The notes under the pieces: generated by a model | Seen by the model: only the letters and a program-made list of their open reading frames with translations | Database searches by the model: none | Told to the model about the DNA's origin: nothing | Shown here: positions 19,101-51,400 of the stretch, piece after piece | Position numbering within the stretch: position 1 is the first letter of the stretch | Layout of the letters: every line of letters begins with the position of its first letter | Source: Antedon mediterranea | Lineage: Eukaryota; Echinodermata; Crinoidea; Comatulida; Antedonidae | Length of the DNA stretch: 64,000 nucleotides | Direction: 5' to 3' | NCBI RefSeq assembly: GCF_964355755.1 | Contig: NC_092672.1 | Location: forward strand, 4,712,001 to 4,776,000 | Position numbers and translations under genes: made by a program

Positions 19101-22100
19101 TGGAATTCATAAAAATAGTATGTATTGTAATATTTCATTTAAACTTCATTCATAAATCAAGAGAATGGATCAATTAATGAAGATTTTAACAGAAATTTTT
19201 TTCCAAGGAAAATACGTATAACTTTTAGTATATTCAATCTAATTTAAAATGTTTACACTACCTGGTTTTAACAGCCGCAGCGCCTCCTCCACTTTTTGCT
19301 AATCTTTCGGAACGGAAGTTTTCGTAGTGAACCTCATGGGTCACCTCTTGTAAATCTTGCATATGAGTTCTATAGATAGTTAAATAATTTAGTTATTAAA
19401 TAAATAAAATATCATTGTCAAAAATTAAGCAAAAAACCTAATAATAATATGAAGCAAAAAACTATTCTAACAAACATACGGTAAACATTGTTCTTAAACA
19501 AGTGAGGGCGGTAAACCAGTTCACTGCTAGATGGTTTAAAAGCACAGATTTTATACTTGCTAACTAAACCAAGATAAACAGCTACAAGATCATAAAGACA
19601 GAAGTCTGCAGTTTGCAGCGTCGTCGGAACAAAAATGTAAACAAAATCCAGAACTTACATTAGCATGCTACGTAACATAATGAAATCACAATGATCAGGA
19701 TTCTCAACTGGAAAAGAAAAGATTAAAATTAAAACATGAAATTTACTAAAAAAATAAAAAATGATATTTTGTTACTTATTTCGATTGTAAAAAAAAAATG
19801 TAAAAGCAAAAATGATATGTTGCTTACCTTCTACAACTCCCCATGGATACAGCCGACCTCTGACCTTCTTTCCTTTCACTTCTATCAATTGGCTTGAACC
19901 ACATACTGCAAACGGTACACTTTGCTGAAAACAAACATTTGATGAGCCATGTGCTACTGAAGCAATTGTTGTTACACAACAATCCAGCAGGATTCGAACC
20001 AGCAGTTATACCACAGACCATTGGATTTTTAAGCAACTTACATTTTTCTCATAAATTATCTATTGTATAGTACTACAATATATTTTTACTGTTTCATACC
20101 ACTTTTCATACCTTGTTAGTATTGATTAAAGGCATTTGTAGCGTTGCATATATGACACCCCACTTTCACCTTATTTACACCTTGTTAGTATTGATTAAAG
20201 GCATTTGTAGCGTTGCATATATGACACCCCACTTTCACCTTATTTACACCTTTTTAGTATTGATTAAAGGCATTTGTAGCGTTGCATATATGACACCCCA
20301 CTTTCACCTTATTTACACCTTGTTAGTATTGATTAAAGGCATTTGTAGCGTTGCATACATGACACCCCACTTTCACCTTATTTACACCTTGTTAGTATTG
20401 ATTAAAGGCATTTGTAGCGTTGCATATATGACACCCCACTTTCACCTTATTTACACCTTGTTAGTATTGATTAAAGGCATTTGTAGCATTGCATATATGA
20501 CACCCCACTTTCACCTTATTTACACCTTGTTAGTATTGATTAAAGGCATTTGTAGCGTTGCATACATGACACCCCACTTTCACCTTATTTACACCTTGTT
20601 AGTATTGATTAAAGGCATTTGTAGCGTTGCATACATGACACCCCACTTTCACCTTATTTACACCTTGTTAGTATTGATTAAAGGCATTTGTAGCGTTGCA
20701 TATATGACACCCCACTTTCACCTTATTTACACCTTGTTAGTATTGATTAAAGGCATTTGTAGCGTTGCATATATGACACCCCACTTTCACCTTATTTACA
20801 CCTTGTTAGTATTGATTAAAGGCATTTGTAGCGTTGCATATATGACACCCCACTTTCACCTTATTTACACCTTGTTAGTATTGATTAAAGGCATTTGTAG
20901 CGTTGCATATATGACACCCCACTTTCACCTTATTTACAGTTAAGACATTATAAAAGTAAAGGAGAATCTCCCCTTTTACCCACAGGAAAGTGTTCCACCA
21001 GAGTTGCTGACTGGTCGTGGGCAACCCATATTGATTTTTTTATACTTATGTACATATTTCATTTCAATTTGTTTTTGTTCATGAATGTTGTCTGGTATGT
21101 GTGTACAGTACATGGAAATGGTATCCAAACTGACAAGCACCCGCTTCTTTTGGTACTATTGAACATTGTAATTGTGAATAAATAAAGTTCTAAACAATTG
21201 CAGTCTGAAAGCATGGCTAAGCGAATGTCAAATTGATAACACTTAGATCAGGTCAACCAGTTTTTCCGGCAATCAATTGATAAATAATATATTTCATTGA
21301 TTGGACGTTGTGTTTATTGATGTGTTCTGGCAGGTTTGGAACAGGTGGGGTACACATTCAACAAATAGACCAAATGATTTGTATTATTTCTGGCTTATCT
21401 CCAACATAAGTATTGAAATATAAAATGAATTTGACATAAACATTGATAAAATTATCTGGTATTTGAAAATGGTTACATTCATTGTGGCGTCGATAAAAAT
21501 AATTTTAAGAATGGTATGTTACTACTCACTTTTAATGAGTTGTTTTGCTCTTTGAAATCTTCATCTTCATCCGAGTCGCTGTCAGGAAGATGATAAACTT
21601 TGATGCCATTGTCATCAATTTCATTCATAATCTATTAAGTTTACAAAAACAGAAATGTCTTATCATTTTTATTGATGTAATTTATGGAATGTTGTAACAT
21701 TATACACTTTTATTAGTATCAACAACCTGCTACATTAGTGGCTACCTGTAAGTTTCTTGTGTTGCTTGTTGTTGTTGTTTTCTTCTCTTTGGGAACTTGT
21801 TTGTTTTTAATACAGTGGCCGTATGTAAGTGAGATATTTTCCTTAAATATTTTTCACTTAACGCAATAAATATTTAAGTATTTTCCTTAATATGTATTCA
21901 TTTAGATAGAATATTTGTTATTTTTATTTTAATGGTATGTGTTTCCCTTAGACTTAGAATGGTGAATGGATCCAAATAATGGTTTTTAAAATGTCTTAAT
22001 TATATCATATGTATTGTTATTGTGTCAATATTTAAATTAATAAATTAAATGGTGACACACCCATCAGTGATACTTATATATTGCAAAATTTTAAATACTT

Positions 22101-25100
22101 TAGGGCACAATGTTTCTTTAAACCGAGCATTATAGTATAACAATGCATACTTATTTGTATAATTGACAAGTCCATTTTAGCCACAACCAACTACAGTAGC
22201 CTAAAATCTTTTAAGTCGGTTTTATACACAGGACCCACAATTTAACATCTCACAAGTTTCATATAACATAATGGCGTTTAACCCATTATCACAATATCAT
22301 TACCTTAGCCTTCAGCATTTGTATCTCGCGTTTAGTGAGAGTGTCGGACTTTGCAATCACTGGCACAATGTTCACTTTGTTGTGAAGCGCCCTCATAAAC
22401 TCAACATCAAGTGGTTTCAATCTATGATAACAAAAATTACAATTGAAAGCAACTTTAATAAATAATTTTGTAAAAACTCTAATGCAATTATATAAAGTGT
22501 ATACTAAACCGCTGAGGATAATGGTGAAAGATATGGTTGATGAAGTTCCTGGAACATACTGATGCCACCAGAGAATCGGAACATAGTCTAGTCAAATCTA
22601 GTCAGAAGCGCATGCAAACTAAACGGATAACACATTAAATGTTTGTATGAAATATCTTAGCATGATTTTCATTTTCATAAAAAATATATATGAAAAGTCA
22701 CTACATAGTTCCAATAGACCGGTGTGTACCCTGACAATTTTCCAGGTAAATTCCAGCTGCAGAGGTCTTGTTAAATTCAGATAAAAATCAATTAAAAACC
22801 TATTAATAATTAATCTTATTTAACTGATCTATCCATGGAAATCCTCAGAACTTAACATTTAGCATCTAAAGCTCTGTCTACACTATCAAACTTTATGTGA
22901 CAAAAAAATGTGATGTGTCCATATGTCCGTCCATATATGGACATGGTGATGTCATATCACTATCATATTTAAGAATATCACTACCATATTAGGCACATCA
23001 AACTTTTTTGTCAAACTAGCACTCGCACACATTGATGTACAGTACTACTACTAGAGATGGATACTGGTATGCAGAGAGATGAACTGGCTGTCACAATGGC
23101 AGATAGAAAGTTATGGAGGAATGTAGTCAAGTTCGGGTATGTCCTGGACTAAGTAAGTAAGTTTGTGAGGTAGTGATATGACAACATCATGTCCATATAT
23201 GGGCACATCACATGTTTTTGTCTCATAAAGTTTGATAGTGTAGACAGAGCTTTATATTACAATAGCCTTACCCATGTCCTGTGGGTGAGATAAAATAGAA
23301 ACAACAATGTACTCGATTGTCCACTATGTGCCTTCTGTTCAAACCACTCTCATCGTTTAAGTACTTCTCATATTGGTCATCGATATATTTCAGGATAGGT
23401 TTGAAACTGCACAAAAAAAAAATTAGAAAAAAAGTATAAGGATAAAATATTAAGCTCTGTCTACACTATCAAACTTTATGAGACAAAAACATGTGATGTG
23501 CCCATATATGGACATGATGTTGTCATATCACTACCATATTTGGTTATATCACTACCATATTTGGGTACATCACACTTTTTTTGTCAAACTAGTTTGATAG
23601 TATTGACAGAGCTTAACACATTATGCTTGGTACTAGCTTGTCATATTGTTTTCTGAACACCCACCCATAAACATTAGGTTAAGTTCAGCACTTTATTTTA
23701 CCTAATTAGACCTTTTAAAATCATGGTTCTGCCACTCTTTTGAATACTACACTACACAGCCCGACAAAGAGGCCTATTTAAATCAAGACCAGTTTGAATG
23801 CACTTTTTTTTCCCTCTAAGTTTTCCTTTAAATTTTATATAAGTTTCTGAACAATCCCAGTATAACTTTGTTTTAAATTGCAATGCACCGAGCTGCAATG
23901 CGCCGAGCTGCAATGCGCCGAGCTGCAATGCGCCGAGCTGCAATGCGCCGAGCTGCAATGCGCCGAGCTGCAATGCGCCGAGCTGCAATGCGCCGAGCTG
24001 CAATGCGCCGAGCTGCAATGCGCCGAGCTGCAATGCGCCGAGCTGCAATGCACCGAGCTGCAATGCACCGAGCTGCAATGCACCAAGAGGTTTCGAGAGT
24101 GGCTTCATTTGAGATCATCGCCTTTCACTATTTAGTGGCATGAACAGCTTCTTGTGTCAGTTGACATAATACCTACCAATCTTGATTGTTAATGGCGTCA
24201 CCATATCCTGGTGTGTCTACCACTGTCAACCGAAGCCTTACTCCCCTCTCCTCTATTTCAACAGTTGATGCATCAATGCTTACAGTTTTGTCTATTTTAT
24301 CTACAATAAGAATACAGTAGAATGAACATTTAGGAACAGAAAATAGGCAACTAAACAATTAATACAGTAAAGTATCAGCAAAAGAAATCTCAGTAATGGA
24401 TGGCAACATCAACAAAAGCAAAGAGATCAGCATAACAGTTGCATAGTAAGCAACAGTACATAAGCAGCAGCAGCAGAAACAATGGTAGCAGCACAATAGT
24501 AGCAGCAAAACAAAAACAGGGGTAGCAGCAGCAACACAACAGTTGCATAAAAGCAGCAGCAACAATGGTAGCAGCACAATAGTAGCAGCAACACAAAAAC
24601 AGCGGTAGCAGCAGCAACACAACAGTTGCATAAAAGCAGCAGCAACAATGGTAACATCACAATAGTAGTAAAAGCACAAAAACAAAGCAGCAGCAACAAT
24701 ATGGTAGCAGCATAATATTAGCAGCAACACAAAAATAACAGTAGCAGCCCAGGAGTAACAAACACATGTGATATTTTTTGTTGGTCATGTTGTTTAATAT
24801 ATGAATAACTTTTAGTTACCTGCAGCACTTGGGATTTGTCTTTCTGGATATAAATCAGTAAGAAACAAACTGTTCACTAGAGTAGATTTACCAAGACCAG
24901 ACTCACCTGAAAAATATTATAAATGTAGGATAATCAGAGAGTTGGGATAATAATATGTAAAGTAACTGTAATGTGGATTTGTAGAAGGCATTTGATGGAA
25001 ATGTACAGTGTGGATTTAAGTATTGAAATTGTGAATTTTGCTGATATCATTATGTAAATTATAAGATGATAATTTAACTACAGTAAATGTGACAAGCCTT

Positions 25101-30587: not shown

Positions 30588-33500
30588 CTACTTTTTTAAT
30601 AACATTTTTGCAAAATCAGCATTTGTTAATTTTGGCTTTGCCAATGCATTGGCTTTTTCTGTTGCATCTGTTTCTATGGTTTCAGATTTATCAATCGGTT
30701 TAGGATTGTTAGGTTGAGGGCGCTTTACAGCTCTCGGAACAAGTGCAATCTGTGTTCTGCTTTTTCCTCGTGGCCCCGAGATACCTCTGTAGAAAATAAA
30801 AGTAAATAATAAATATCTTAAAGATGAACATGTGAGCTAAATAAAAAATTGGATGCATATTATATTCAGAATTAAAATAGAGGACGTTCACAAATAAGTT
30901 TACACTACGAGTGTGCCCAAATATTGTAGTTATATGACATCATCATGTCCATATATGGCCACATCACATTTATTTGTCACATGATGTTTGATAGTGTAGA
31001 TAGAGCTGTAGATACTAGCCCCAACAACGCCAAGCTCCCTAATATTAGGGATGAGCAATTCTTTGGAATATTTGTATCAGGAATAGAGCCTTTTCTGATA
31101 TAGAGTAAGAGTAAAAACGCTACATACTTGGCTCCAAGAGATACTGGAGGTGCAGCAGACTCCTTAGCTGTACCTGCTTGTGGTTTCCGTGTCGGTGGGT
31201 TACTAATGGCAACTGAAACAGTGTGCTCGCCAATAACAGTACCGTCAGCTCCTAATACGGCACTTGATGCCTCGCTCTGGAAATGAAAATGTTAAATTAT
31301 ATGATGAGGAAAAACTGAAGAAAAGGTGTATGTGTAGTGGGGAGAGGAAATTGTTAAATATGGTACATCTCATATTTAGAGGAGACCTATTCAGAGGACA
31401 CCAAAAGTTAGGATCATTTCACTGGAAAGTGTCTCCTTAATAGAGGCGTCCCTTGAATAGGTAGGGTAGTAGATTAGGCCCTCCACAGAACAAACGGCAG
31501 CCAGCACTGCAGAGCCTACCAGATCAGCACACAGGGAGACAATCCCCTACTCTGTATACGATCCCCTACTCTGTATACGATCCCCTACTCTGTATACGAT
31601 CCCCTACTCTGTATACGATCCCCTACTCTGTAGACGATCCCCTACTCTGTAGACGATCCCCTACTCTGTAGACGATCCCCTACTCTGTAGACGATCCCCT
31701 ACTCTGTAGACGATCCCCTACTCTGTAGACGATCCCCTACTCTGTATACGATCCCCTACTCTGTATACGATCCCCTACTCTGTATACGATCCCCTACTCT
31801 GTAGACGATCCCCTACTCTGTATACGATCCCCTACTCTGTAGACGATCCCCTACTCTGTAGACGATCCCCTACTCTGTAGACGATCCCCTACTCTGTAGA
31901 CGATCCCCTACTCTGTAGACGATCCCCTACTCTGTAGACGATCCCCTACTCTGTAGACGATCCCCTACTCTGTAGACGATCCCCTACTCTGTAGACGATC
32001 CCCTACTCTGTAGACGATCCCCTACTCTGTAGACGATCCCCTACTCTGTAGACGATCCCCTACTCTGTAGACGATCCCCTACTCTGTAGACGATCCCCTA
32101 CTCTGTAGACGATCCCCTACTCTGTAGACGATCCCCTACTCTGTAGACGATCCCCTACTCTGTATACGATCCCCTACTCTGTATACGATCCCCTACTCTG
32201 TATACGATCCCCTACTCTGTATACGATCCCCTACTCTGTAGACGATCCCCTACTCTGTAGACGATCCCCTACTCTGTAGACGATCCCCTACTCTGTAGAC
32301 GATCCCCTACTCTGTAGACGATCCCCTACTCTGTAGACGATCCCCTACTCTGTAGACGATCCCCTACTCTGTAGACGATCCCCTACTCTGTAGACGATCC
32401 CCTACTCTGTAGACGATCCCCTACTCTGTATACGATCCCCTACTCTGTAGACGATCCCCTACTCTGTATACGATCCCCTACTCTGTATACGATCCCCTAC
32501 TCTGTATACGATCCCCTACTCTGTATACGATCCCCTACTCTGTAGACGATCCCCTACTCTGTAGACGATCCCCTACTCTGTATACGATCCCCTACTCTGT
32601 AGACGATCCCCTACTCTGTAGACGATCCCCTACTCTGTAGACGATCCCCTACTCTGTAGACGATCCCCTACTCTGTAGACGATCCCCTACTCTGTAGACG
32701 ATCCCCTACTCTGTAGACGATCCCCTACTCTGTAGACGATCCCCTACTCTGTAGACGATCCCCTACTCTGTAGACGATCCCCTACTCTGTAGACGATCCC
32801 CTACTCTGTAGACGATCCCCTACTCTGTAGACGATCCCCTACTCTGTAGACGATCCCCTACTCTGTAGACGATCCCCTACTCTGTAGACGATCCCCTACT
32901 CTGTAGACGATCCCCTACTCTGTAGACGATCCCCTACTCTGTAGACGATCCCCTACTCTGTAGACGATCCCCTACTCTGTAGACGATCCCCTACTCTGTA
33001 GACGATCCCCTACTCTGTAGACGATCCCCTACTCTGTAGACGATCCCCTACTCTGTAGACGATCCCCTACTCTGTAGACGATCCCCTACTCTGTAGACGA
33101 TCCCCTACTCTGTAGACGATCCCCTACTCTGTAGACGATCCCCTACTCTGTAGACGATCCCCTACTCTGTAGACGATCCCCTACTCTGTAGACGATCCCC
33201 TACTCTGTATACGATCCCCTACTCTGTAGACGATCCCCTACTCTGTAGACGATCCCCTACTCTGTAGACGATCCCCTACTCTGTAGACGATCCCCTACTC
33301 TGTAGACGATCCCCTACTCTGTAGACGATCCCCTACTCTGTATACGATCCCCTACTCTGTAGACGATCCCCTACTCTGTATACGATCCCCTACTCTGTAT
33401 ACGATCCCCTACTCTGTATACGATCCCCTACTCTGTATACGATCCCCTACTCTGTATACGATCCCCTACTCTGTAGACGATCCCCTACTCTGTAGACGAT

Positions 33501-36500
33501 CCCCTACTCTGTAGACGATCCCCTACTCTGTAGACGATCCCCTACTCTGTAGACGATCCCCTACTCTGTAGACGATCCCCTACTCTGTAGACGATCCCCT
33601 ACTCTGTAGACGATCCCCTACTCTGTAGACGATCCCCTACTCTGTATACGATCCCCTACTCTGTAGACGATCCCCTACTCTGTAGACGATCCCCTACTCT
33701 GTAGACGATCCCCTACTCTGTAGACGATCCCCTACTCTGTAGACGATCCCCTACTCTGTAGACGATCCCCTACTCTGTATACGATCCCCTACTCTGTATA
33801 CGATCCCCTACTCTGTAGACGATCCCCTACTCTGTATACGATCCCCTACTCTGTATACGATCCCCTACTCTGTATACGATCCCCTACTCTGTATACGATC
33901 CCCTACTCTGTATACGATCCCCTACTCTGTATACGATCCCCTACTCTGTATACGATCCCCTACTCTGTATACGATCCCCTACTCTGTATACGATCCCCTA
34001 CTCTGTATACGATCCCCTACTCTGTATACGATCCCCTACTCTGTATACGATCCCCTACTCTGTATACGATCCCCTACTCTGTATACGATCCCCTACTCTG
34101 TATACGATCCCCTACTCTGTATACGATCCCCTACTCTGTATACGATCCCCTACTCTGTATACGATCCCCTACTCTGTAGACGATCCCCTACTCTGTAGAC
34201 GATCCCCTACTCTGTAGACGATCCCCTACTCTGTAGACGATCCCCTACTCTGTAGACGATCCCCTACTCTGTATACGATCCCCTACTCTGTAGACGATCC
34301 CCTACTCTGTATACGATCCCCTACTCTGTAGACGATCCCCTACTCTGTATACGATCCCCTACTCTGTATACGATCCCCTACTCTGTATACGATCCCCTAC
34401 TCTGTATACGATCCCCTACTCTGTATACGATCCCCTACTCTGTATACGATCCCCTACTCTGTATACGATCCCCTACTCTGTATACGATCCCCTACTCTGT
34501 ATACGATCCCCTACTCTGTATACGATCCCCTACTCTGTAGACGATCCCCTACTCTGTAGACGATCCCCTACTCTGTAGACGATCCCCTACTCTGTAGACG
34601 ATCCCCTACTCTGTAGACGATCCCCTACTCTGTAGACGATCCCCTACTCTGTAGACGATCCCCTACTCTGTAGACGATCCCCTACTCTGTAGACGATCCC
34701 CTACTCTGTAGACGATCCCCTACTCTGTAGACGATCCCCTACTCTGTATACGATCCCCTACTCTGTAGACGATCCCCTACTCTGTAGACGATCCCCTACT
34801 CTGTATACGATCCCCTACTCTGTATACGATCCCCTACTCTGTATACGATCCCCTACTCTGTATACGATCCCTTACTCTGTATACGATCCCCTACTCTGTA
34901 GACGATCCCCTACTCTGTAGACGATCCCCTACTCTGTAGACGATCCCTTACTCTGTATACGATCCCCTACTCTGTATACGATCCCCTACTCTGTATACGA
35001 TCCCCTACTCTGTATACGATCCCTTACTCTGTATACGATCCCCTACTCTGTAGACGATCCCCTACTCTGTAGACGATCCCTTACTCTGTATACGATCCCC
35101 TACTCTGTATACGATCCCCTACTCTGTATACGATCCCTTACTCTGTATACGATCCCTTACTCTGTATACGATCCCCTACTCTGTATACGATCCCCTACTC
35201 TGTATACGATCCCCTACTCTGTATACGATCCCCTACTCTGTATACGATCCCCTACTCTGTATACGATCCCCTACTCTGTATACGATCCCCTACTCTGTAT
35301 ACGATCCCTTACTCTGTATACGATCCCTTACTCTGTATACGATCCCCTACTCTGTATACGATCCCCTACTCTGTAGACGATCCCCTACTCTGTAGACGAT
35401 CCCTTACTCTGTATACGATCCCCTACTCTGTATACGATCCCCTACTCTGTATACGATCCCCTACTCTGTATACGATCCCTTACTCTGTATACGATCCCCT
35501 ACTCTGTAGACGATCCCCTACTCTGTAGACGATCCCCTACTCTGTAGACGATCCCTTACTCTGTATACGATCCCCTACTCTGTATACGATCCCCTACTCT
35601 GTATACGATCCCCTACTCTGTATACGATCCCTTACTCTGTATACGATCCCCTACTCTGTATACGATCCCCTACTCTGTATACGATCCCCTACTCTGTATA
35701 CGATCCCCTACTCTGTATACGATCCCCTACTCTGTATACGATCCCCTACTCTGTATACGATCCCTTACTCTGTATACGATCCCTTACTCTGTATACGATC
35801 CCTTACTCTGTATACGATCCCCTACTCTGTATACGATCCCTTACTCTGTATACGATCCCCTACTCTGTAGACGATCCCCTACTCTGTATACGATCCCCTA
35901 CTCTGTATACGATCCCTTACTCTGTATACGATCCCCTACTCTGTATACGATCCCCTACTCTGTATACTCAATTCTTTACCTCTTTTTCATACTCTATGAA
36001 TGCCAGACCTTTTGGTACACCACTTCTGTATGTCACTACTCGGACATCTTTTACAACGCCATACTGGAAGAGAAATATACCTTAAATCATAATGTAATTC
36101 ATACTCCATCACATATAATGGACAATACTGGTAATACAGATCTACTATTATAACATCATCCACAGTTCAAACCAGCATGTGATGTTAGTGGAAGGTTGAC
36201 AAGTGCCAAAGCCGCTTGGGTTCTTACCTTTGAAAACATCTCCTCAAGATCTTCTTTGGTCGTCGATCGTGGTAATCCAGAAACAAACAACTTCTTTTTG
36301 TCAAGACTTGTATCATACTAATGTCAAAATAAAAATAAGCAAAAATAATGTAATCATATTTCATACACATCCAACAATTATAAACTAAAGCTTTGTCTAC
36401 ACTAGCACACTTTATGTGACAAAAATATGTGATGTGCATATATATGACCATATTTGGGCACATCACACTTTTTTTTGTCAAACTAGTTTGATAGTGTAGA

Positions 36501-39500
36501 CAGAGCTTAAGTCTCATTTGAAGCTTTATGGCGTGGAGTAGAGACAGTTGTGAGTTAAAACCCTGGCACTAGGTTAGGGCAGGCATGTTACCTAAACATT
36601 TGTTTTTTTTTTAAAGAAGGTAGTAATCCATTTACCTTGAATTGTTTTGTCGTTTTTTGATCTCCTTTTGATTTGTCTACGCTAGGATCAACGTAAATCG
36701 GTCGTCCATCGATTTCATAGCGATCACGTTTTAAGGCTTTCTCTACCGATTCCTAAAAGAAAAACTTTATATTTTAGTTTCAAACATAGCTGCCTTGATA
36801 TACAAAATATATCTGGTCATATTAAACTAAATGCTTTATTTTAATGCACCTAATTTAGTCTAGTAATTAAAATCATCATTATCATTTTCTTTTCTTGAAA
36901 CATTGTACATATAATTATCTTTGTTGTGATTTTATGAATAAACGTATTTCTATTTGTAATAGGATATTGGTAATAGGATATATCTCATAAATATAAGCAC
37001 ACCCCATATAAAAACTTAATAATATAATACAGTACCTTATCTTTGAATTCAACATAGCAGTAACCACGGAACTTGCTTTTATTTTCCACTTTCATCCTAA
37101 TCTCAGTAATTTCACCACACTGTTGAAAAAATGTTACAGATGAATTTTCCCCCAAAAACATGACAAATGAAGATTAATAAAATCAGATTTGAATAGGCCA
37201 TTTTGTAAAATAGTGCTTCACTTATAAAAAGACAAAACAAACGGTTAAATTTAACCAAAAACCCATTGGCTGGCAGCCAATTTGACTATTTTTTGTTTTA
37301 AATTACAGTTTTTTACAGGTAAATAAATTTTGTTTTTAATCCAATTTTTTTGTCAAAGTGAATAACTATTATGGAACATCAAAATGGCATATACAACAAC
37401 AAAAATTGGAAAAAAAATATTCTTCAAGGGGACACTATGTTTAATAATTATAGTACTAATAATACTGCTAATATTATTATTGTATACACAATGTAGCATT
37501 ATAATTGTATTGATGGATTTTTAATAAAATCAAAACTTACCATATCAAACGCATTTCGTATCTTTTCTTCAGATATGTTATAACTTAGATTTTTCACAAA
37601 CACTGTCAAGTCGTCACGGTAACTTATTGTATCTTTTTGGACAACTTCTTCCATTTCAGAATCTTTTATTTGTAATGAAAAAAAAAGAATATAATTTATT
37701 ATTCTTTATTATTATACTATGCCAGTAAACACTAATTCTCCTGGGTGAAGACAAACAACTCCACTTCACTAAAACGCATTGAAACATTTTTTGTGGAACA
37801 TGCTATACAAATATATTAAAACATTATATTTTTTGTATGTGCATGGTCCAGGGAGGAACTACTGTACTATGACTTGAGCCTCTGGGGTTAAATAAAGCTG
37901 AATAGAACTATTACTTACCTTTATTTCCTGATATAGCCTCTTCGGTTTCTTGGGAAGCAACTTGTGGCTTTTGTGCTGCTTTGGAAGGTGATTTGAGGGA
38001 TGCAGAAACTGGAAACGTTGGTACAATGAACCCATCATCATCCACTTTGGCGTGTTTAGCCGACACTTCTGATTCTGTGTCAGCCTGTCAACAAACAAAC
38101 ACCTTGTTAACTATCTACACTATCACACTTTATGTGACAAAAAAAATGTGATGTGCCCATATATGGACATGATGATGTCACATCACTACCATATTTAAGC
38201 ATATCACTACCATATTTGGGCACATCACACATTTTTTTGTCAAACTAGTTTGATAGTATAGACAGAGCTTTAGATAACTTATACATATTTTGCCTATAAG
38301 ATAATAGATATGAGTTTCAGACCCAGCTTGTGTATGTTTATTATGCAGAACAAGATGGCCAAATATTGAAACAGGCTGAAAGGAGTAAAGGTTATTGGGA
38401 TTCTGTCCATCACACATACTTTTGCCTATTCTTTAAGCTCTGTCTACACTATCAAAGTTTATGTGATGTGCCCATATTTGGACATGATGATGTCATATCA
38501 CTATCATATTTGGGCATATCACTACCATATTTGGGTACATCACACATTTATTGACAGTGTAGACAGAGCTTTACTCTTACCTTCCGTTTCATTGGTTCTC
38601 TCTTAGTTTCCTCTGCTTTTCCATTTTTTTTTTCTGGTTGTTTCTTCTTTTCTTGCTTCTTCCTTTTCTCAATATCTTTATTATGAAATTCTTTTCTACC
38701 TTCGCCTCTATTGTCTGGTTTCTTCCATTTTGATTGGTCCCTTTTATCACCTGACCTCTCCTTGTGCTTGTAATCTTCTTTCCCCCTACGCTTATAGTCC
38801 GTTTGTCCAATTCTCTCGTCATCTTCCTTGTTCTTATTCTTCCAGAATTTACCACCACCGCTTTTAGCCATTTTCTTTTCTGCCCTCTTTGCAGCCTAAA
38901 CAAAAAGCAACATTTTTCACAAGTTTTTCTACAATATCTCTGCATTCCAAGTCATTATTTCAACAATAATGATTAAAGGCCAATTTACATAGATGAGTGG
39001 TAAGTGGAAAACAAAAATGTAGAATCTATGTTATTTATTACAACCATTTACACAAAACACGGAGCGAATGGGCAGTTAAGAAGAAACATGTTCAGTACAG
39101 ATACAGACTATTTATGTGGGACACTACACATTTTCCGCTTAACGTTACCACTCGTCTGTGTAAATTGGACTCTAGTGGCAATATAAAACGGATAAGAAAG
39201 GTAAAAGAAAATCTTATTTACAAAAACGCTTGATAAATACCTTTAGCTTGTGTTTTTCCTCAGCTTCTAGTATAACCTGAACCTTACTGTTAGATTCTTC
39301 AAACGAGTTGAGCGAGCCATACTCGCGCTCAAAGTTGAGTAGAGTTTCACAGATTTGTTGAGGCGTGTCTGTTTCCATGTCAACAGCTTGTAAGAGCACT
39401 TCGCGGCATGTATCTAAGTCACCATATTTTCTATTGATAATAATTAGCATAATTTGACATTATAATTTTGATCTGAGCATGTCTTCTGTTCAGTGGTGTA

Positions 39501-42500
39501 TGGCTATGAGCGCTCACTGGCTAAACCCAGGGGCCCCAGAGCTTAAGGGGCCCCAGAGCTTAAGGGCCCCAGAGTCCAATGCAACTACCCAGCGTTGGAG
39601 GGCCCCTTGGGAGTGCTAAACCACAGGCTTTTTCCACATGCGTTACGCCACTGTTCTGTTTCAGAAATCAATCATAAGTGAATTGTACTTTTTCGAAAGA
39701 CAATACTTACAGTTCTAATTGGTAATACTCCAACCAGTATTGGGCCTTATATCCATTTTCAGTTTCAGTTAGAATGGTGTTCCATTGTTCTCGCCCAAAG
39801 TCAAGGTTATTATTGTAATGCATCTGAGATGAAAAACAACCATTAAAATAATTTGTTTAAAGATACATTGTCAACCTAAAAAATTTGTTTTAAACATTTT
39901 TTTTTTAATATGCCATTTTCATGTTGCGTATTAGTTATTCACTTTGACCTAAAACTTTGATCTGAAAAAAAAAAAGATTTACCTGAAAAAAATGTATTTA
40001 AAGCAAAAAATACCTCAATTGTCTTAAGTGAAATAACCATTTGTTTTGGTCTTTTTTTTACAGAAGTGAATAACTTTATTAAAACTGTCCTATTTAAAGT
40101 CTGATTTTATTCATCTTCATTTTTCATGTTTTTGGGGGACAATACATCTTTAAACCTTCATTGAATAAAACTTTTGTCTTTCTTTAAACCAAATTTAGGA
40201 ACATATTATTTACCTCAACTTTAGCCCAGTATTTTTGTAGAGTATACAAACTGTCTCCCTGGCCTCCAAAGTCTGTATATGCAATGAAAAATATGTTACA
40301 TTATATTATGTTATTATGTTACATTAATTACATTATACATAATGAAAGAAAATAAAAAATCTTTATTTTTCTATATTTTATGTTTTAATTTTTCCTCAAA
40401 AATAAAAATACTCACATTGATTCATAAAATCAATTGCTCTCTGAACTGTGTCACGGAATTCTTGCAGAGCAACAGTTGCAGTAGATTTCCATTCAATTCG
40501 TCTTTTAAGATAATTTAGCCACGCTGTCCAAAAGTCTAAGTACTCGTTAGAACCGGAGAAGCCAGCTAGTATAGCTTCTTCGCAAACACCTGTGGAACAA
40601 GGGATGTATACAAAATTGTGTTCTTAAAAAGAATCCGATAAGATAAGGGTTAAATTAATGTTTTGTTTCTATATATTTAGGCAAATTGCCAAGGATAACC
40701 ATAAGCGAATTCATTCACTATCCTTCTTAAGGGTGGAAATCCTGTTCACAAGACAAACATATACACAAGATGCTCTATATAAAACAAAGTCTTATTACAA
40801 GTCTTTAGGAGTGGAGTTGTAATTTGTCATTAGAAAAAATCCTGACATGGCATGACAGGACTTGAACCCTTGGATTGGTAGCCAAGCATCATAACCACCA
40901 AGCCACAACTCCACTCCAATGTACATACACTTTCCTTCTGAATACAGTGAAAAATAGATATATAGACATCTGAAATATCAATTATAATATAGCTTTTACC
41001 TAATATGTCTGTATGTGGCTGTTTTAATCTCTCCATTGCACGCATATACCCAATCCAAAGCTCTGCAGACCAAGGACAATTTCTAACAGCTCTTTTATGA
41101 ATGTTTAGAAGGCTTTGACAATCATTTTGGTTCTTTTCTTTATTCACAACATCTCTTTCTGGTTTTTGGAGACTTTCAACATCTGTCATCATCTCTTCTT
41201 TTCCTCCCAGAGGTTGATGGTACCGATAGAACACATTTTCATCGTCTTTTAATTCTTTTGCGTGATTCACTCTATAATCCTCATCCTAAGAGTAAAATAA
41301 AAATATATTGGTACTATGGCTTGGTCGTTTACATGCTTGCTTATCAATCCGAGGGTTTTTAGTTCAAATCCTGTGACAGATCCAGGATTTATCTGAGGTT
41401 CATATGGGTTTAGAAAGCACGAGTTGCAGTTGCATTGTTGAAAGGAAGATATTTTGCACAAAATCAGAGATGAATTTAGATGTATGTATGCCCAGTAGTA
41501 ACAAAATGATCCAAGGTTAATTAAAATTGATTCAATGAAACTTACCATAGCTTTAGTGTAGGCCTGCCATAGAGAAGCATTCAGGCAGTTTTCAACCAGC
41601 GCTCGTTCATATATACATTGTAGCCTTTTAATGTCACCCTTAGACTGGAGTGCTCTGATGTAATTTTCATACTCTGCTAGCCTAGGAGCTTCGGCTTTAT
41701 TCTATTAAAACACAGAGGAGACAGTGAGAAGTGACTTCCACAAGATACACACTTAATTTTATACTGTACATATTTCTATATGTTTATACTGTTGAGTGGT
41801 TTAATATGTTTTTTGTACTGTTTTACTGCACCAGTCTTTGTGAGTGCAACTGTTCTAAATCTCTGCCTACACTATCAAACTTTGTGTGACAAAAAAAAAG
41901 TTGATATATATATCCATATATGCACATGATGATGTCATATCACTACCATATCTAGGCACATCACCTTTTTTTTTTTGTCATACAAGTTTGATAGTGTAGA
42001 CAGAGCTTCGTCTCCTTGAAATATAACCGTTCATCATTCACCTCATGCCATTATTTGTACCATTACACTCATAAAAATGTGTATTTATATTTGTATAATA
42101 TTAGTTTTTTTAAACAAATTCTAGAAATCACTTCAAATTGAACCACTTACAAGAGCTATTTCATATTTATGATAAGCTTTAAGCTGACACAAAGCTTTGT
42201 TGTAATCATCCGTGATTTCTTTAGGAACTCCATCGGTCAAAAACTCCTGAAATTCAAGATAGGTTTCTTCCATGGCTGTAGAAAAAAATAAAGAAAAATT
42301 ATCAAATAACTACAAAACATGACAATGTGAGTTTTGGTTAGCAAAAATAAGAGATTTAAGATTTTAAATAAGTAATTCATAAACACAGTATTGCATTTTG
42401 AAGAAAACTATTGTAGTATGCTATCATGTTACCACAAGCTTATAGCTAGGGGATGTTTAGGGGTTAAACAGAAACGCCCACTTTTCCCCACAGAAGAGCA

Positions 42501-45349
42501 TTTTTCAAACTACAGACTAACAGCAGTTCAACTGCTAACAAATAGCACTTGACTATTGTGTGAATACCCTATGAAATTAAAAGAAATTATTTTTTATTTA
42601 TTTATTTCACCTTATTTATAGAGGGTGATCCCAAACAGTGTATGCTTAAAATCAAGGGGTCCTCTTGATGAGTTTATGATAAGTGTCTGTGTGTGACAGT
42701 GGCTGTGTGACACCGGGGTAACCCCTAATCATCTCGAAAGATATACTAGGTTCTTTAAAGTGCACATGAGCCAGATTTTGATTATCTCACTAAATAATCT
42801 CTTTTCTACTTACTAAGAAGAGGTGTAGAAAGCTGTCTTTTAAAGAGGCTTTCAATTCGCTTTTCTTGTTCCTCTAATTTCGTCTGTTCTTCACTTGTTT
42901 GAACAGCTCCAATCTGGGGCTGTAATTAATATCAGCCTTAGTTAGTGCTTATAGAAATTGTACAAATACTGAAAACTTAAGAGGTCTTTAATTGGAAACC
43001 TTACGTTATCATTATATCTTATTCTTTAATCTGAACCAAAGAGATACTATTAAACTACTGTACTAGAGTGTCAACTCCCTACACAATCATAGCTCACTAT
43101 GAAGAATATAGCTGCACCAATCAATTGCCACTCTTGTAGTTTAATACTATCTCTATGATCCAAGCACAAACCTGCAAACTCTGCAGTATGGCATTTTCAA
43201 AAACACGGTAAGAATCCCATATCAGTGAACCACGAGTAACATGAAGACCAGCAACAGAGACCGCCCTTTCATATGTATCCCGTGCTTTAGCGAGACCCGC
43301 TTCTGTTCCAATGCCACCAATGGTGAACTGACAGTACTCTAGCCAAAGACTAACAGCTATAAAAAAAATGTATCAATTATAATATACAGTATTAATTATT
43401 TTCATTTATTAATTTCATTTTTATCTTGTGGTAAACATAACTGGCAATTTAATTTTCATAACTGATTTTATTATAAATTTGTAAAAAAAATATAGAACAT
43501 TGGTTCATTTTTTTTCCAATTTTAGGCCTCCCAAATATTTCAAAATCCGGGATCTGCCACTATTATCCCAGTTATAATGTAGTTCATATGCTACCAGTCA
43601 AAGTCAACCCTCTTACTGTATGCGTATAAAGGGAGAATGGAAATGAAAACATATACAAATTTATGAACACAAACTACTGTAATAGCAAATGGTATATAAT
43701 GTATTTATGGTGACTATAATCTGAAATAAGGTCCTTACAAAGGTAATCAGAAACAGCTCTGTCAAGCAGCTCAAGCACTGCTTTCTTTTCATGTTCTGTT
43801 GAGGCTAACTTAATCTCATCTTGCACCCATTCCAACCACAACTCTATGGCAAATAAATAAATTGTTAATCATATGACAAAATACCCTGCATGAAGAAGCG
43901 CAATGATCTATAGGCTAAATAGATACTAGTTTCTGTTGGAGGTCAGGATCATGCCAGTTGCACAGCAAAAAGAGGTTCTAAAATCAGCACAGTTCACCTT
44001 TGACCTTATAGCAAGTGAATACACAAAAGATCTTAAATATAAATACTTTTGCATGTAAATAATACTTTAAATACGGTCGGGAGAATGCTAGTAGTATTAT
44101 AGGCATATCAAAGTCAATAGTATAGATCTAATAAAATACCTTCAGTGAGAGGAAATATCTGGGCCATTGCATTCCGTGCATCTCTTAGTTTTTCCAATTC
44201 CCCAGATTCTTTTAAGAATTTTATCAGTTTCACATGATTTTCGTATTCATAAGGGCTTTCTGTGACCTGAAATTAAAAAAAAAACAATAATTTCATTATT
44301 CTGGTATATATATAAAAACATCTTGATATATTGCAGTCAAGAACTAAATTGCATCAAAATTTACAAGTGAAAGGAACAAATGCAAAACAGATATAGGCTA
44401 GGCCTACATAATAAAATTAAAACAAAAGTAATTAGGCCTACTGACTGTACAATACAACAATATATTAAAAAACATTAAAATGTGATAATAATACACTTGT
44501 CAATTGTATGACCCACTATACAACCCCCGGGAGAGGTGCGTCATGGGTGCGTCATTTAGTTTACAAATAATTACTGACGCAGGGGTGTGTCAAAAAACCT
44601 AGATTAAAGCCTAAAGGTACGTCACATTAATGAATGATGGTGTGTCAATGTCCGTCACTTTACCACTAAAAATATCATAAAAAAACATGGTCATAGTGCG
44701 TCAAAAAAAAAATGCGTCTTGGTCACTTAAAGGTAGGTCACATTTTTTATGTGCGTCATGGTATTCATAAGGTATGACGCACATCGGACAAATGACGCAC
44801 CTCTCCCAGGGGGTCATACAATTGACAAGTGCATATTAATAAATAGGCAGCTTTATTAGTTACAATTTAGTTTCATTTTCTTATCGGATTATATTTCATG
44901 TCAGGCCTAAATATATTGTATTGTGTATATATATAGAGAATACGTCTTAACACTTTACTTACTTACTCACTGCGGAGGGGGTGGGTTGACTTTCAAAACA
45001 AATATTTCAACTGCTGTATAATGCGTTTATTAAATAATAATTTTCACATGGCTCTGGCCGATCCCTCTGGCCTATGCCGTCTCCTAAACTATTATACGTC
45101 ACAATATGAAAGTATCATTCAATAGCCAGTGCGTAGGCCTAGGCCTAAAACCACTCACTGATGTAACCCCATCGACCGGCCTGTTATCTGTGAAGCTATA
45201 CTTATCGCCGCCGCCTTGGCCTAGCCTAGCAGAAAGAAGCCTACCTTGTTGGTCAATTCTTGCTCCTGCAATTCGTTGTCTTCATCGTCTAAACTTGAAT
45301 CAGAGTCTTCGTTAGTTTCAGCTTCACATTCCATTTTATCGGTGTCCAT
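30588..45349 (-). CDS. SART3: SART3 / Prp24-like U4/U6 snRNP recycling factor (complete, 21 exons, 1018 aa)
   Basis: Exons: 45349-45245, 44266-44140, 43843-43739, 43356-43172, 42919-42814, 42275-42151, 41701-41546, 41285-41000, 40589-40416, 40272-40214, 39823-39711, 39430-39241, 38895-38581, 38084-37919, 37662-37541, 37119-37036, 36752-36636, 36317-36228, 36063-35980, 31276-31128 and 30786-30588 (3057 nt). All are AG/GT and in phase. SART3 re-anneals U4 and U6 snRNAs and is a scaffold for USP4/USP15 in the nucleus. Order: acidic N-terminus; HAT repeats in exons 2-12 (for example LWLEWVQDEI, IYERALVENCL, RAVRNCPWSAELW); a Lys/Arg-rich exon 13; two RRMs; and a C-terminal NADFAKMLLKK tail like the LSm-binding end of human SART3. 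The start MDTDKMECEAET follows no other in-frame Met exon. It is slightly longer than human (963). Confidence 0.98.
30901..31010 (+). mobile_element. MITE-A copy, 5' end degraded
   Basis: The body (GTGTGCCCAAATATTGTAGT) and the right end (GTTTGATAGTGTAGATAGAG) are clear and the left inverted repeat is eroded. It lies in the last SART3 intron. Confidence 0.75.
31541..35967. repeat. 19-bp x 233 minisatellite in SART3 intron 19
   Basis: The unit is GATCCCCTACTCTGTATAC with alternates GTAGAC and CCCTTAC. The array spans 4427 bp, exactly 233 x 19, so no unit carries an indel. On the SART3 strand it reads GTATACAGAGTAGGGGATC. It starts 13 nt after the exon 19 donor and makes up 94% of the 4703-bp intron; without it the intron would be 276 bp. 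GTAGAC units dominate the left half, GTATAC units the right, and CCCTTAC units occur only from about 34.87 to 35.91 kb. Being pure tandem without spacers, it is not CRISPR-like. Confidence 0.99.
35980..37662 (-). CDS. SART3: SART3 exons 15-19: RRM1 and first half of RRM2
   Basis: This is part of the 30588-45349 gene. Exon 15 holds RRM1 RNP2 (LTVFVKNLSYN) and exon 16 its RNP1 (KFRGYCYVEF). Exon 17 ends RRM1 with GRPIYVDPSVDKSK, closely matching the human linker. Exon 18 starts RRM2 with RNP2 KKLFVSGLP, and exon 19 carries its RNP1 (PKGLAFIEYE). Both RRMs have the aromatic or aliphatic residues expected at the RNA-facing positions, so RNA binding should be retained. Exon 19 is the one whose donor faces the 19-bp array. 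Confidence 0.95.
36387..36510 (+). mobile_element. MITE-A copy, short
   Basis: It runs from AAAGCTTTGTCTACACTAGC to GATAGTGTAGACAGAGCTTA, about 124 bp. It lies between SART3 exons 17 and 18. Confidence 0.88.
38106..38273 (+). mobile_element. MITE-A copy, complete
   Basis: The left end is slightly diverged (AACTATCTACACTATCAC) and the right end is TATAGACAGAGCTTTA. It lies between SART3 exons 13 and 14. Confidence 0.88.
38434..38573 (+). mobile_element. MITE-A copy abutting the SART3 exon 13 donor
   Basis: It runs from TAAGCTCTGTCTACACTATC to CAGTGTAGACAGAGCTTTA. On the gene strand exon 13 ends CGGAAG, followed by GTAAGAG and then the element's TAAAGCTCTGTC, so the insertion lies at about intron position +8. 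Confidence 0.92.
38581..38895 (-). CDS. SART3: SART3 exon 13: basic nuclear-localisation region
   Basis: This is part of the 30588-45349 gene: 105 codons, phase 0 at both ends, with no Cys and very rich in Lys, Arg, Glu and Asp (for example KRKKQEKKKQPEKKNGK). It sits between the HAT repeats and RRM1, where human SART3 has its nuclear-localisation and coiled basic segment. Sequence is poorly conserved but composition and position agree. Confidence 0.92.
39241..45349 (-). CDS. SART3: SART3 exons 1-12: acidic N-terminus and HAT-repeat domain
   Basis: This is part of the 30588-45349 gene. Exon 1 (35 codons) is acidic (EDSDSSLDDEDNELQ). Exons 2-12 hold roughly 12 half-a-TPR (HAT) helices pairs with the W..Y/F...E pattern, for example LWLEYCQFTIGGIG, APRLAEYENYI, FWTAWLNYLKRR and YWLEYYQLE. 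The HAT domain of SART3 dimerises and binds U6 snRNP proteins and USP4/USP15. Exon 8 (41285-41000) is longer than the human counterpart, with a polar insertion before NCPWSAELW. Confidence 0.95.
39491..39653. mobile_element. hAT-like non-autonomous element
   Basis: Ends are CAGTGGTGTA and TTACGCCACTG, which are imperfect inverted repeats of the CAGTGGCGTAA type common in hAT elements. A TTCTGTT direct repeat flanks it. Inside, GGGGCCCCAGAGCTTAA is tandemly repeated. It lies in the SART3 intron between exons 11 and 12. Confidence 0.7.
40807..40918 (-). mobile_element. tRNA-like SINE bracketed by a 13-bp inverted repeat
   Basis: The complement reads GGAGTTGTGGCTTGGTGGTT (A-box region), an anticodon-like arm CTTGG...CCAAG, then AGGGTTCAAGTCCTGTC (B-box). 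GGAGTGGAGTTGT occurs inverted at both borders. It is between SART3 exons 8 and 9. Confidence 0.65.
41310..41380 (+). mobile_element. tRNA-like SINE, diverged
   Basis: GGCTTGGTCGTTTACATG resembles an A-box and TTAGTTCAAATCCTGTGAC a B-box about 30 nt later. The layout matches the element at 40807-40918, on the opposite strand. It is in the next SART3 intron. Confidence 0.5.
41856..42008 (+). mobile_element. MITE-A copy, complete
   Basis: It runs from TAAATCTCTGCCTACACTAT to TAGTGTAGACAGAGCTT, with a long A/T stretch in both arms. It lies between SART3 exons 6 and 7. Confidence 0.87.
42590..42790 (-). mobile_element. Probable LINE 3' UTR and tail
   Basis: The minus strand ends in AAATAAATAAATAAAAA after GGGATCACCCTCTATAAAT, a typical 3' tail of CR1/RTE-like LINEs. 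Upstream, GATGATTAGGGGTTACCCC and GTGTCACACAGCC look like LINE 3' UTR. No coding part remains. Confidence 0.4.
44494..44834. mobile_element. TIR element with GTGCGTCA repeats
   Basis: CACTTGTCAATTGTATGACC at the left is matched by GGTCATACAATTGACAAGTG at the right, and GGGAGAGGTGCGTCA by TGACGCACCTCTCCC. The interior repeats TGCGTCA and GGTACGTCACATT in both orientations. It is about 340 bp, non-coding, and lies in SART3 intron 1. Confidence 0.9.
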
Positions 45350-46609: not shown

Positions 46610-48486
46610 TTACAATAAAGAGAAAAGAATGCAATACTCACCGACGGCAATAACAACGACAGAAGCATTGATACAGGTCAACACGCCAGAGGTCACGGTT
46701 TCGCTGGTTCTGCCAATGCCTTCCCTACTCAAAATTGATTTCACCGACAAGTTTAGAACGACATAGACCAATGTAGTGATCTGAAATCGTTGTGCAAATT
46801 TGTTCTTGATTGGTCTAAAGTGGATATGGAGAAGAATGAGGCAAACGATCACCAGTACAGAGTACGCTATATCAATGTCTGAATAGTTTTCGTAATTGAC
46901 AATCAGCGCTAGAGCTGCTTTTGTAAATATCTCAAGAACTTCCCAGAACCAACAGCGCGGAGTGTACTCGACGTAAAAGAACGACAGATGGTGTTCTTGC
47001 TTTTGGTGCTGCTGCGGCCATTGACATCGCTGTTTCTGATCATGCTGTTGATTTTGCTGCTCTGTCTGCTCATAATCGATAGAGTTTAAGATATCTTGCA
47101 CAATGGCATCGTTATTAAATGCATGTTCTTCATTGTTCTCTCCACCAATATTGGAACAGTCTGTGCTCAGTAGCTGTTGATAACTATGATATCTACCAAA
47201 AGGAGGAGGTCGGCGACGTCGGCGAACATAATATAGAATGCACCCGATCGAAACCGGAAAACCAATCACGTACAGAAAAGAAAAATAACAAAGTATTAGG
47301 TAGGCATTTGTGCCTGTGTCATTGGATATGATAATGGAATAATCCATTTTCAACATCGTCCGCGTGCAACTTCCGTCGTGCGTCACGTTAAACGTACGAT
47401 ACGCCCACGGTCCTATAGCCATGATTCCCGAACATGTGTTTGCATAGGTAAAGTAGAGAAGTAGCAACACGACAAAGCACACCAAACCATTGGTAACTGG
47501 AAAATCAACATTTCGTTTTCGTTTTATGGTGACGATAATCACAGCGACGCATCCAAAGAGTATAATAACAACAGGAACACATATTGATAGCACTGCTTGC
47601 TTGTATGCATTCCAGGCGAATCCGTAAAAAATACATCTTGGGCTGAGCAGATTTATGTAGCCTACAATATCCAAATAGATGAATAAATTCCCGCCTATTG
47701 TTTTAGATAAATCGTTTCTTCTGACTGACAAAATTCCAATAATTTGATAATAATTAATGGCAATTTTAACGTACATACTTACAGATTTTATATTCAGTTT
47801 ATCATATTTTTGACGCAACATAGTTTGATATTTGAAAGTTAATGCTCCAATCAAAACAACGAGTAGTGTGATGACACTGAACATCAAAAGAAGGATGGTA
47901 GAATGAGGACACTTGTGACATTCGTAAAATAATGTGTAATAACCTTTTTTGCACACGACACATAGCCAGTCTTCGTAGCCTTCAGCACACGCGGCCAATG
48001 TCCCGTTAGATATGCAGCTTTTAGGACGGGGACATCTGTGCACAGATGGAATGGAGCCGTTGTATTTGACGTTCTTAAGCTCTTCTGGATAGGATACATC
48101 GAATGTGCTGTTGTTTAGCCCATTTATAAACTCATCATACTCAGCAGCAGGACTTCCAGAATGGTTACCATAAAAAATGCTGTTGGTGAAGTTCCAACTC
48201 CACCAGTATCCATTCTGTAGTTGTTGATATCCACCAGAACAATCTACTCCTTCTGAAGGACACGGAATACATTCCCCAAATCTTTCAAATCGATGGAACA
48301 TCGAACTGCAGTCGCAAGCGTTTAGGCCAGCGCAAGAGTCGGTTTGAGTACCCAGAGGACAAGCTAAGCAATTACTCATTGACGATGCCCCGGCTTCTGT
48401 AGAAAATGTTCCATTTGGACATCGTTTGCAGTCAGTTGTGTAATTTCCTGTTTTTACAAAGCCAAGCATATCTTGATAGTATCCGC
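46610..48486 (-). CDS. LRR receptor last exon: GCC2/GCC3 modules and polytopic membrane domain
   Basis: This is part of the 46610-58797 gene: 1877 nt in one exon, against 60-200 nt for the others. It opens with GGYYQDMLGFVKTGNYTTDC and a second CPNGTF module, then several NxS/T sites and paired Cys. Hydrophobic spans include ILLLMFSVITLLVVLIGALT, ICVPVVIILFGCVAVIIVTI, LVCFVVLLLLYFTYA, YLILCYFSFLYVIGFPVSIG, FTKAALALIV, YSVLVIVCLILLHIHF and CINASVVVIAVGEYCILFSL. A cytosolic-looking segment carries RRRRRPPPFGRYHS and a Gln/His-rich tract. The frame stays open upstream to 48691, but that part is MITE-B sequence and lies before the AG acceptor at 48487, so it is excluded. A compact single-exon membrane module suggests an exon-shuffled or retrotransposed origin (inference). 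Confidence 0.93.
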
Positions 48487-51400
48487 CTAAAACGTAGATA
48501 AATATATATATATATATATGATTATACGTGCGTAAAACTTGTTTCCCACTAGAGACGCAACGCAAGGACGAGTTGAGAAAAGACAACCAACATTGCCTCT
48601 GCGTTGCGTGTACGTCCTTGCGTTGCATCCTAGTGGGAACCAAGCTTTTGGAGTCAATACTATTGTTAGACTGTGGAGGAATAAGTTTCATGGTTAGACT
48701 AAAGCTTGGTTCCCACTAGAACGTAACGCAAGGACGTAAACGCAACGCAAGTGAATTGACCAATCACAAGCGATGGCTTATTCGCTTGTGATTGCTAACT
48801 GTCTATAACTTCGCTTGTCATTGGTTAAAACGCTTACGTTGCGTTTACGTCTTTGCGTTACGTTCTAGTGGGAACCACGCTTAAAGCTTGGTTCCCGCTA
48901 GGACGTAACTCAAGGACGCAATCCATGCGAATTGACCAATCAAAGCGATGGATTATATGAACTTTCGTTTGTGATGGTCAATTCGCTTACGTTACGGCTT
49001 ACGTCCTTACTTTACGTCCAAATGGGAACCAAGCTTTACGAAATGTTGCGTACCTGGTGGGCATTTCAGACACACGGCATGTTCATCTTTATTTCCAAAC
49101 GTGCCCCTTTGGCAGAACGTACACTCTGTTTGATCATCGCCGGGACATTCAATGCCGCTGATATATATTATCGATTGTTTTTCATGTTTAGCGTTGGAGA
49201 GTCCCTCTAGTGTAATATTGATTCCATCATATGCACAGGTCCTAGAAATAAATTTCACATCCAAAATTGATGAGCACATACGAACAAGTTAAAGGAGGCC
49301 ATTAATGGAGCATTCGATTTGCGGCGACCAAAGTAGGCCTACGTCATGTTAATTCACAGATGTGTTTTTTCTTCCCTTGACTACTGTCGGTCAGTGGATG
49401 GCTTCGGTAAAACTAATAATTTAATTTAGATAAAGATATAATGTGCTTCAGACAGAACTTACGCTATAACATTCTGGCCAACCGAATTTGGCAACTTGTG
49501 TAGCTGTTCACAAGATAGGTAAACTATTGTAAAACTTGCAAAACTGTCCTCATCAATTGTATATATTGGGTTGTCGTGTATATACCTATTGTACATGAAT
49601 TATTGCATTAAACCAATCCATAACAGTGTAACAAGAAAAGATACATTTCCATTTGATACTTGTATGCTAGGCTACATATTATAATATAACAAGAGGGACA
49701 GACAATCAATATCATTTAACTTACAGATATGCTTGTTGTTTTTCTTCTGTCATCTTGAAAGCAAATTGCGAAATATTACTTAATTGATTGCCGTAAAGAT
49801 ATCTAAAATATGAATGATAATGTTAATAAATCAATAAATTATTCACGTAATTGAAACATTTCAACGTATTTACTTTGGATCGTAACGAAGACGGCCTTGC
49901 CTTGGGTCAGACCTACCCACACCCCTTTCATTCTCTCTGCATGCATCAAAAGCCTTTTTGTCACTTAGGCCTATAACCTAAAACGCTCTATGATATTAAA
50001 TTTAAGTTACAATTCGAGTCTCTTTTTGGGAGTTCCGATTTAAATTGTAACCTTCCATTTGTTAACATAATGCTTATTTACATTGCAGACAGGTTGGAGT
50101 CATCAAACGCATAGTCATCAATACTACTGATGTTATTATGGGCTATCATTCTGAAAAAAAAAATAACAGAAACGTTCAATTAATATATAACCCGTTCGTT
50201 ATATACCGTACGCTTCATACGACTATTACGGCGATCGCACCTCCATGAGTTAAAGAGGATGGGAGAGTTGAGTTCCGGTTAGATTAAGGCCAACTCAGAC
50301 AGCATCGTAGGCTACGACGACGACCTAAAAAATACGCCCGACGCCATCTCAAGACGACTCGTCTCGTCGAGATTCAACTCAGACAGCACTGACGAGTCAA
50401 GACGTTTCGGCGGGCCTCGTCGTACGACGCTATCTCGGTTGGCCTTTACAGTGTTACTAAATAGTTAGTCGAGGCATGTAAAGGTTGATAAGCTACTAGG
50501 CATTAATACAGTATTAATACTTACAAGACTTTCAGCTTTGTCATTCCCTTGAAATTCGCCTTTCCAATGCTTGAAATATTGTTTTGAGACAACATGACTT
50601 CTTCGGTTGCATTGGTACCAATTTTGCCTGTTCCCAGTGTTTCAATGCTGTTGAAATTGAGCATTCTTCAAGAAAAATTATCAACATCTTTTAGAAATCG
50701 TGAACTTAAGTGAAGTATAAGTATTACAGGAACTCAATCTTCAAGTAAAGCTTATATTTAAAATATGGCGGCAATCGCACTTCAGCCTTCATTAGAAAAG
50801 TTCACATTCATTTTGATTCGCTTTAACTGTATTTTGTCTTTTATGTGTAAACTGAATTTGGGGTTGGGCCAACCGGCTCAGCTACAGTGATTAAGTTCAC
50901 TTAGGTTGACCCTGGTCTCCCCACTCTATAGTTCACTATGTCAGTCGGTCGGTCTGTCGATCTGTCTGTCTGTCGGTCCGGTATCACTATGCGTTTTAGC
51001 ACGCAACTTATGGCTGTTGGCCTTGTTTTTACAGGCCTACCACAATGTCATTTTCGGATTTAACAGACACATGTTCAAACTGCCATTTCAGTCACGTGTG
51101 TGCTTCAAATCTTCTAGGGCATAACCAGACCATACCTTAATAATATAATCGAAAAATTAAATATAGAACCGAACTTACAATTGTGTAATTGTACACATGC
51201 TAACGGCTGGTGAAATTTCGGTAAGCATATTGTTGGTCAGAAACCTGAAATTGTAAAGATGTAAATTCTACTTTAAATACGGCCTATTTTAGAGGAGGAT
51301 GTTGGTTGTATGAATCAGAAAACCGCATATAGAGGGGAGAGGAGGAGACTATACGATATTACTCACAATCCATGTATAATGCATACACTGTCAAATGCTT

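Follow-up and report, generated by a model that had tools for sequence, protein, structure and literature searches.

A probable SINE-seeded minisatellite of 233 units swells intron 19 of SART3 in the crinoid Antedon mediterranea

In the 64,000-nt stretch of Antedon mediterranea DNA analysed here (NC_092672.1, positions 4,712,001 to 4,776,000; hereafter the window), one intron is filled almost entirely by a single 19-bp repeat that begins close behind the 5′ splice site. This raises the question of where the repeat unit came from, how it was amplified and whether the array bears on the splicing of its host gene. The features concerned are the following (window coordinates):

30588-45349, minus strand: SART3 gene, 21 predicted exons with an open reading frame (RRM2/domain matches and splice model)
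31277-35979, minus strand: SART3 intron 19, 4703 bp, phase 0, GT..AG (gene model)
31541-35967, minus strand: minisatellite, 233 x 19 bp, sense unit GTMTACAGAGTARGGGATC, no indel (tandem-repeat call and unit cutting)

The host gene was identified from its domains: the joined RRM2 hits structures of human SART3 (2do4, E = 8e-28), and the joined exon set encodes HAT repeats, two RRMs (RRM_1), LSM_int_assoc and a C-terminal Lsm motif, with Lsm_interact below the curated cut-off. Note that the 21-exon model is a phase-consistent, consensus-based prediction with a frame open to the stop, in which a few small exons are possibly off. In this model the array lies in intron 19, that is between exons 19 and 20 where the initial annotation had placed it, and the proportions given there also hold, the array filling 94% of the intron from position +13 and ending 264 nt before the acceptor. 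The other SART3 introns measure 143-978 nt, and intron 19 without the array would be 276 nt, or 295 nt with one unit kept; it is a normal ~295-nt intron swollen to 4.7 kb by the array. Read directly from the sequence, read-through into the intron gives GTA AAG AAT TGA, with a stop as the fourth codon.

The regularity of the array was confirmed both by TRF (31537-35964, period 19 bp, 233.1 copies, 98% matches, 0% indels) and by cutting it into units, which gives exactly 4427 bp = 233 x 19 at 31541-35967, as first described. Only four unit types occur: type A (123 units; plus strand GATCCCCTACTCTGTAGAC, sense GTCTACAGAGTAGGGGATC), type B (92 units; plus strand GATCCCCTACTCTGTATAC, sense GTATACAGAGTAGGGGATC), type C (17 units; plus strand GATCCCTTACTCTGTATAC, sense GTATACAGAGTAAGGGATC, reading GTAAGGG in sense) and type D (a single edge unit; plus strand AATCCCC..., sense end GATT). 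Type A units form the majority, and type B stands at both borders of the array. A GGGG in every unit of the sense transcript, as had been claimed, is found in 216 of the 233 units but not in the 17 C units.

The extent and copy number of the array rest on one assembly (354 Mb in 18 contigs, chromosome-scale). Long uniform arrays are difficult to assemble, so that the real array could be much shorter, longer or less regular; however, the order among its internal variants and the cleanness of its flanks, in an assembly of this contiguity, are unlike random misassembly. We therefore hold an artefact to be extremely improbable, while the copy number may be off. The search for the 19-mer elsewhere in the genome, proposed in the initial annotation, was carried out in two ways, by similarity search, which for DNA can miss common words, and by scanning the assembly for a spaced motif, two cores at a distance of 19 nt with no more than 3 mismatches. 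Neither found a second array in the 354 Mb. The scan returned 233 matches, and among the 100 matches listed all lie inside the SART3 array; since 233 is about what this array itself supplies, we take it to be unique in the assembly.

The initial annotation had named no source for the unit. Dispersed copies, alignments and 5S heads point to one within the intron itself:

31472-31553, minus strand: piece of a dispersed SINE with a 5S rRNA head, which overlaps array unit 1 and holds the core AGAGTAGGGGATC (genomic copies and alignments)

Taken with the first unit, the flank on the acceptor side (31472-31553) has matches of 89-93% identity at no fewer than 40 sites scattered through the genome, and these dispersed copies align as one single element; a 43-mer from the SINE has at least 193 close copies in the assembly (up to 3 mismatches). 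Six copies carry a 5S rRNA-related head matching RF00001 of Rfam above the gathering score (E 3.5e-13 to 1.6e-5). On these heads, the element is classed from sequence as a 5S-rRNA-derived SINE of the SINE3 type, and the SART3 fragment itself lacks the head. The SINE consensus reads ...GTTAAAGAACTTGGTACACTATTCGAAAAGAGTAGGGGATCGTCTCCC..., and its stretch AGAGTAGGGGATCGTCTCCC continues through the array edge. Sense unit B can be written GTATAC-AGAGTAGGGGATC, and its last 13 bases are identical to the SINE consensus; the core of the unit thus matches inside a dispersed element, and the other 6 bases probably do so too. Elsewhere in the genome, at C6:6975329-6975737, two SINE 3′ parts, 100% identical, stand in tandem 328 bp apart; here the SINE itself was recently duplicated in tandem. 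Intron 19 also holds a second dispersed repeat:

31414-31461, no strand assigned: second dispersed repeat of intron 19, of sense AAGGAGACACTTTCCAGTG type (its relatives elsewhere form tandem families of 81-89 bp)

Tandem relatives of this repeat were observed at L036:277-1619 (15 x 89 bp) and L034:1345-1610.

At its acceptor-side edge the array is embedded in the SINE copy. On the donor side a continuation of the SINE is suggestive:

35962-35979, minus strand: first 18 nt of intron 19, GTAAAGAATTGAGTATAC, comprising the 5′ splice site and a probable SINE continuation (alignment to the consensus GTTAAAGAACTTGGTACAC, then a 9-nt deletion)

These 18 nt stand directly before the first AGAG and are colinear with GTTAAAGAACTTGGTACAC given a deletion of 9 nt (TATTCGAAA). 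The edit distance is 4, and equally close are 4 of 3636 window 18-mers starting with GT, 0 of 593 starting with GTAA or GTGA, and 18 of 5000 shuffles with GTAA fixed (0.4%). Gap-penalised scoring of the same alignment is weaker (p ~0.04), and the 12 nt outside the array, tested alone, are not significant (380 of 5000 shuffles). Weighing the edit distance against these last two results, we conclude that the alignments show a SINE origin of the unit core, and that the unit as a whole and the 18 nt on the donor side likely derive from the SINE too. A similar deletion at the same place is present in one other SINE copy (L069); a common subfamily sharing the 9-nt deletion was rejected, this being the only other copy.

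We then considered how the unit was amplified. The 4.4-kb array holds three variant alleles, of which one occurs a single time, in the edge unit, versus 11 alleles and 4 singletons in a comparator array of 52 copies from the same genome. The variants are moreover ordered along the array:

34866-35967, minus strand: donor-proximal 58 units, the sole zone with the C variant (GTAAGGG, a better pseudo-donor) (unit map)

All 17 C units lie within these 58 units nearest the donor, and the unit types form 64 runs, compared with 131 ± 7 in shuffles. Such clustered and polar variants are better explained by repeated duplication of local blocks, through slippage or unequal exchange, than by a single event of mixing. 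A single rolling-circle or template-switch burst inserting a ready-made array would explain the exact register, the absence of indels and the few variants, but it would not be expected to leave the variants clustered and the C units at one end, nor was a candidate source array found in the assembly searches; we regard such a burst as very unlikely. Of the recent, homogenising amplification by unequal exchange or a rolling-circle-type process that had been proposed, the recent and homogenising character stands, given the few alleles relative to the 52-copy comparator, and a single rolling-circle burst is the less likely part, given the ordered variants. The amplification is younger than the SINE insertion, since the SINE fragment is ~90% identical to its relatives and the units are ~98% identical to each other. 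Larger repeating patterns, with C at every fourth unit or a period of 8 units, were rejected, the longest repeated block not being significant against a Markov null (p 0.13).

The array had also been called extreme for a minisatellite. In a baseline of eight arbitrarily chosen 10-kb samples, one of which reads N, tandem repeats fill 16% of the remaining 70 kb, a small sample dominated by one 10-kb locus, and they fill 13% of the window; several exceed 500 bp without indels. Long indel-free arrays are therefore common in this genome, although none of those sampled is as long or as uniform as the SART3 array. One 10-kb sample (L073:3240-10000) consists mostly of tandem repeats with periods of 45-298 bp that run off its end. 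Within the window, a 69-bp array at 20110-20938 has 12 copies, 98% matches and three variant alleles, and a 17-bp array at 61203-61756 (AGCAGCTACAGTACAAT) has 32 copies and 85% matches.

Overall, we consider it probable that the array is an intronic minisatellite which was seeded by a SINE and grew through slippage or unequal exchange, in a genome where minisatellites abound. The old SINE fragment within SART3 intron 19 carries the 19-mer core, and the array abuts and overlaps this fragment. A deletion may have joined the interior of the SINE directly to the 5′ splice site, or placed it beside that site, with the loss of 9 nt, leaving GTATACAGAGTAGGGGATC; this 19-mer would have been duplicated and then expanded in blocks of units via replication slippage and/or unequal exchange. 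The expansion would be recent, almost no private mutations having accumulated, and a self-folding unit variant (GTCTAC) may have risen to the majority during it, consistent with hairpin-assisted slippage. Splicing of intron 19 presumably continues to use the retained donor, in which case the array would be mostly a passive passenger.

The part played by self-folding was assessed from predicted folds. Six A units reach -52.8 kcal/mol (z -8.5), compared with -24.4 (z -4.4) for six B units. Among the 57 single substitutions of B, the change to A ranks 1st for RNA self-folding, 2nd for the G-rich DNA strand and 6th for the C-rich strand, and variant C is folding-neutral. The direction from B to A was inferred from the array edges and from the SINE. 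That the majority unit A fits hairpin-assisted expansion is suggestive, but it is one mutation seen after the fact. A-runs are not significantly longer than B-runs in the array (p 0.16; 0.08 beyond the C zone), and the A base is also found in the SINE immediately past the array (GTCTCCC), from where it could have been copied with no folding advantage. A stronger reading, which we find unlikely, is that the self-complementary A unit, forming a periodic hairpin in RNA and in G-rich DNA, drove the slippage and also keeps the intron spliceable with its ends looped close. As unit variants of differing folding strength coexist in one array, hairpin-driven expansion is testable allele by allele. A usual short-loop G-quadruplex is unlikely, given the 15-nt loops between GGGG runs.

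As for splicing, GGGG is an hnRNP H/F-type motif and UAGGG an hnRNP A1-type motif, roles described in vertebrates. The true donor of intron 19 (PWM 3.3, U1 duplex -6.9) is ordinary for SART3, in which U1 duplexes range from -4.0 to -12.2. The array contains 17 pseudo-donors AGA|GTAAGG (PWM 2.1, U1 duplex -5.8), all in the donor-proximal 58 units, and 216 pseudo-donors AGA|GTAGGG (PWM -0.5, U1 duplex -5.5). Pseudo-acceptors in the array are weak, the best scoring -1.3 to -2.4, and a pseudo-exon inside the array was rejected for this reason. In the minimum-energy fold from exon 19 to part of exon 20, the graph distance between donor and acceptor is 13, a value that is illustrative only, as a whole-intron fold is unreliable.

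The closest parallel in position, by analogy, is the VNTR in intron 18 of human ABCA7, which has a 25-bp unit and varies in length from 0.3 to 10.7 kb, its length correlating both with skipping of exon 19 and with reduced expression (De Roeck et al, 2018; PMC5954066). In both cases a short-unit repeat at a splice donor has greatly enlarged one intron, and the SART3 array likewise has a unit within 10-100 bp, in a gene intron and next to the donor. The two differ in that the first two bases of the ABCA7 unit are the donor itself, whereas the 19-bp SART3 array starts from +13 and has a SINE seed, and in that length variation and exon skipping are demonstrated for ABCA7, whereas the SART3 array is known from one genome sequence alone. 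It is a probable length-variable intronic repeat of a known, ABCA7-like kind.

This parallel also bears on a regulatory reading, in which the GGGG/UAGGG motifs, the pseudo-donors and RNA folding would alter exon 19-20 splicing and repeat number would tune SART3 output. The 216 GGGG units starting near intron +25, the two sets of pseudo-donors, a predicted fold bringing donor near acceptor and the ABCA7 precedent of length-correlated exon skipping all favour it; against it, the motif roles come from general knowledge of vertebrates, the pseudo-acceptors are weak and the fold is not reliable over a whole intron. We consider it quite unlikely, and retain the SINE-seeded minisatellite grown by slippage or unequal exchange. 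SART3 being a splicing factor, a length-variable intron in this gene would be worth measuring.

SINE-derived tandem repeats are already well documented, and the array probably adds one more case. A 1998 study, cited in PMC9659126, reported the (GGCAGA)n family, in which a short motif internal to a SINE expanded into a tandem repeat; the SART3 array would likewise have grown from a short motif inside a SINE, but it is one locus with a 19-bp unit from a 5S-headed SINE rather than a family. Transposable elements have given rise to at least 7,276 tandem repeats in the human genome (PMC3389668). Like them the SART3 array probably arose inside a transposable element and expanded by local duplication; unlike that set, it is intronic, lies beside a donor and is dominated by one self-complementary unit. 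PcH-sat of Patella caerulea, also an invertebrate SINE-derived tandem repeat, comes from Nin-SINE and forms a pericentromeric satellite with a 179-bp unit that makes up to 10% of the genome (PMC11121367), in contrast to a single 4.4-kb intronic locus. What makes SART3 a clear case is that the SINE fragment, the probable deletion product and the expanded array are found next to one another at the same 5′ splice site.

A second array near a 5′ splice site was observed in the window, at 23879-24081, where a 15-bp repeat (13.5 copies, 2 unit types) lies roughly 90 nt past an apparent donor, by eye in an intron of a septin-like gene. Adjoining SART3, open frames on the minus strand at 46613-52000 with leucine-rich-repeat-like, cysteine-rich and transmembrane-like stretches point to at least one large receptor-like gene.
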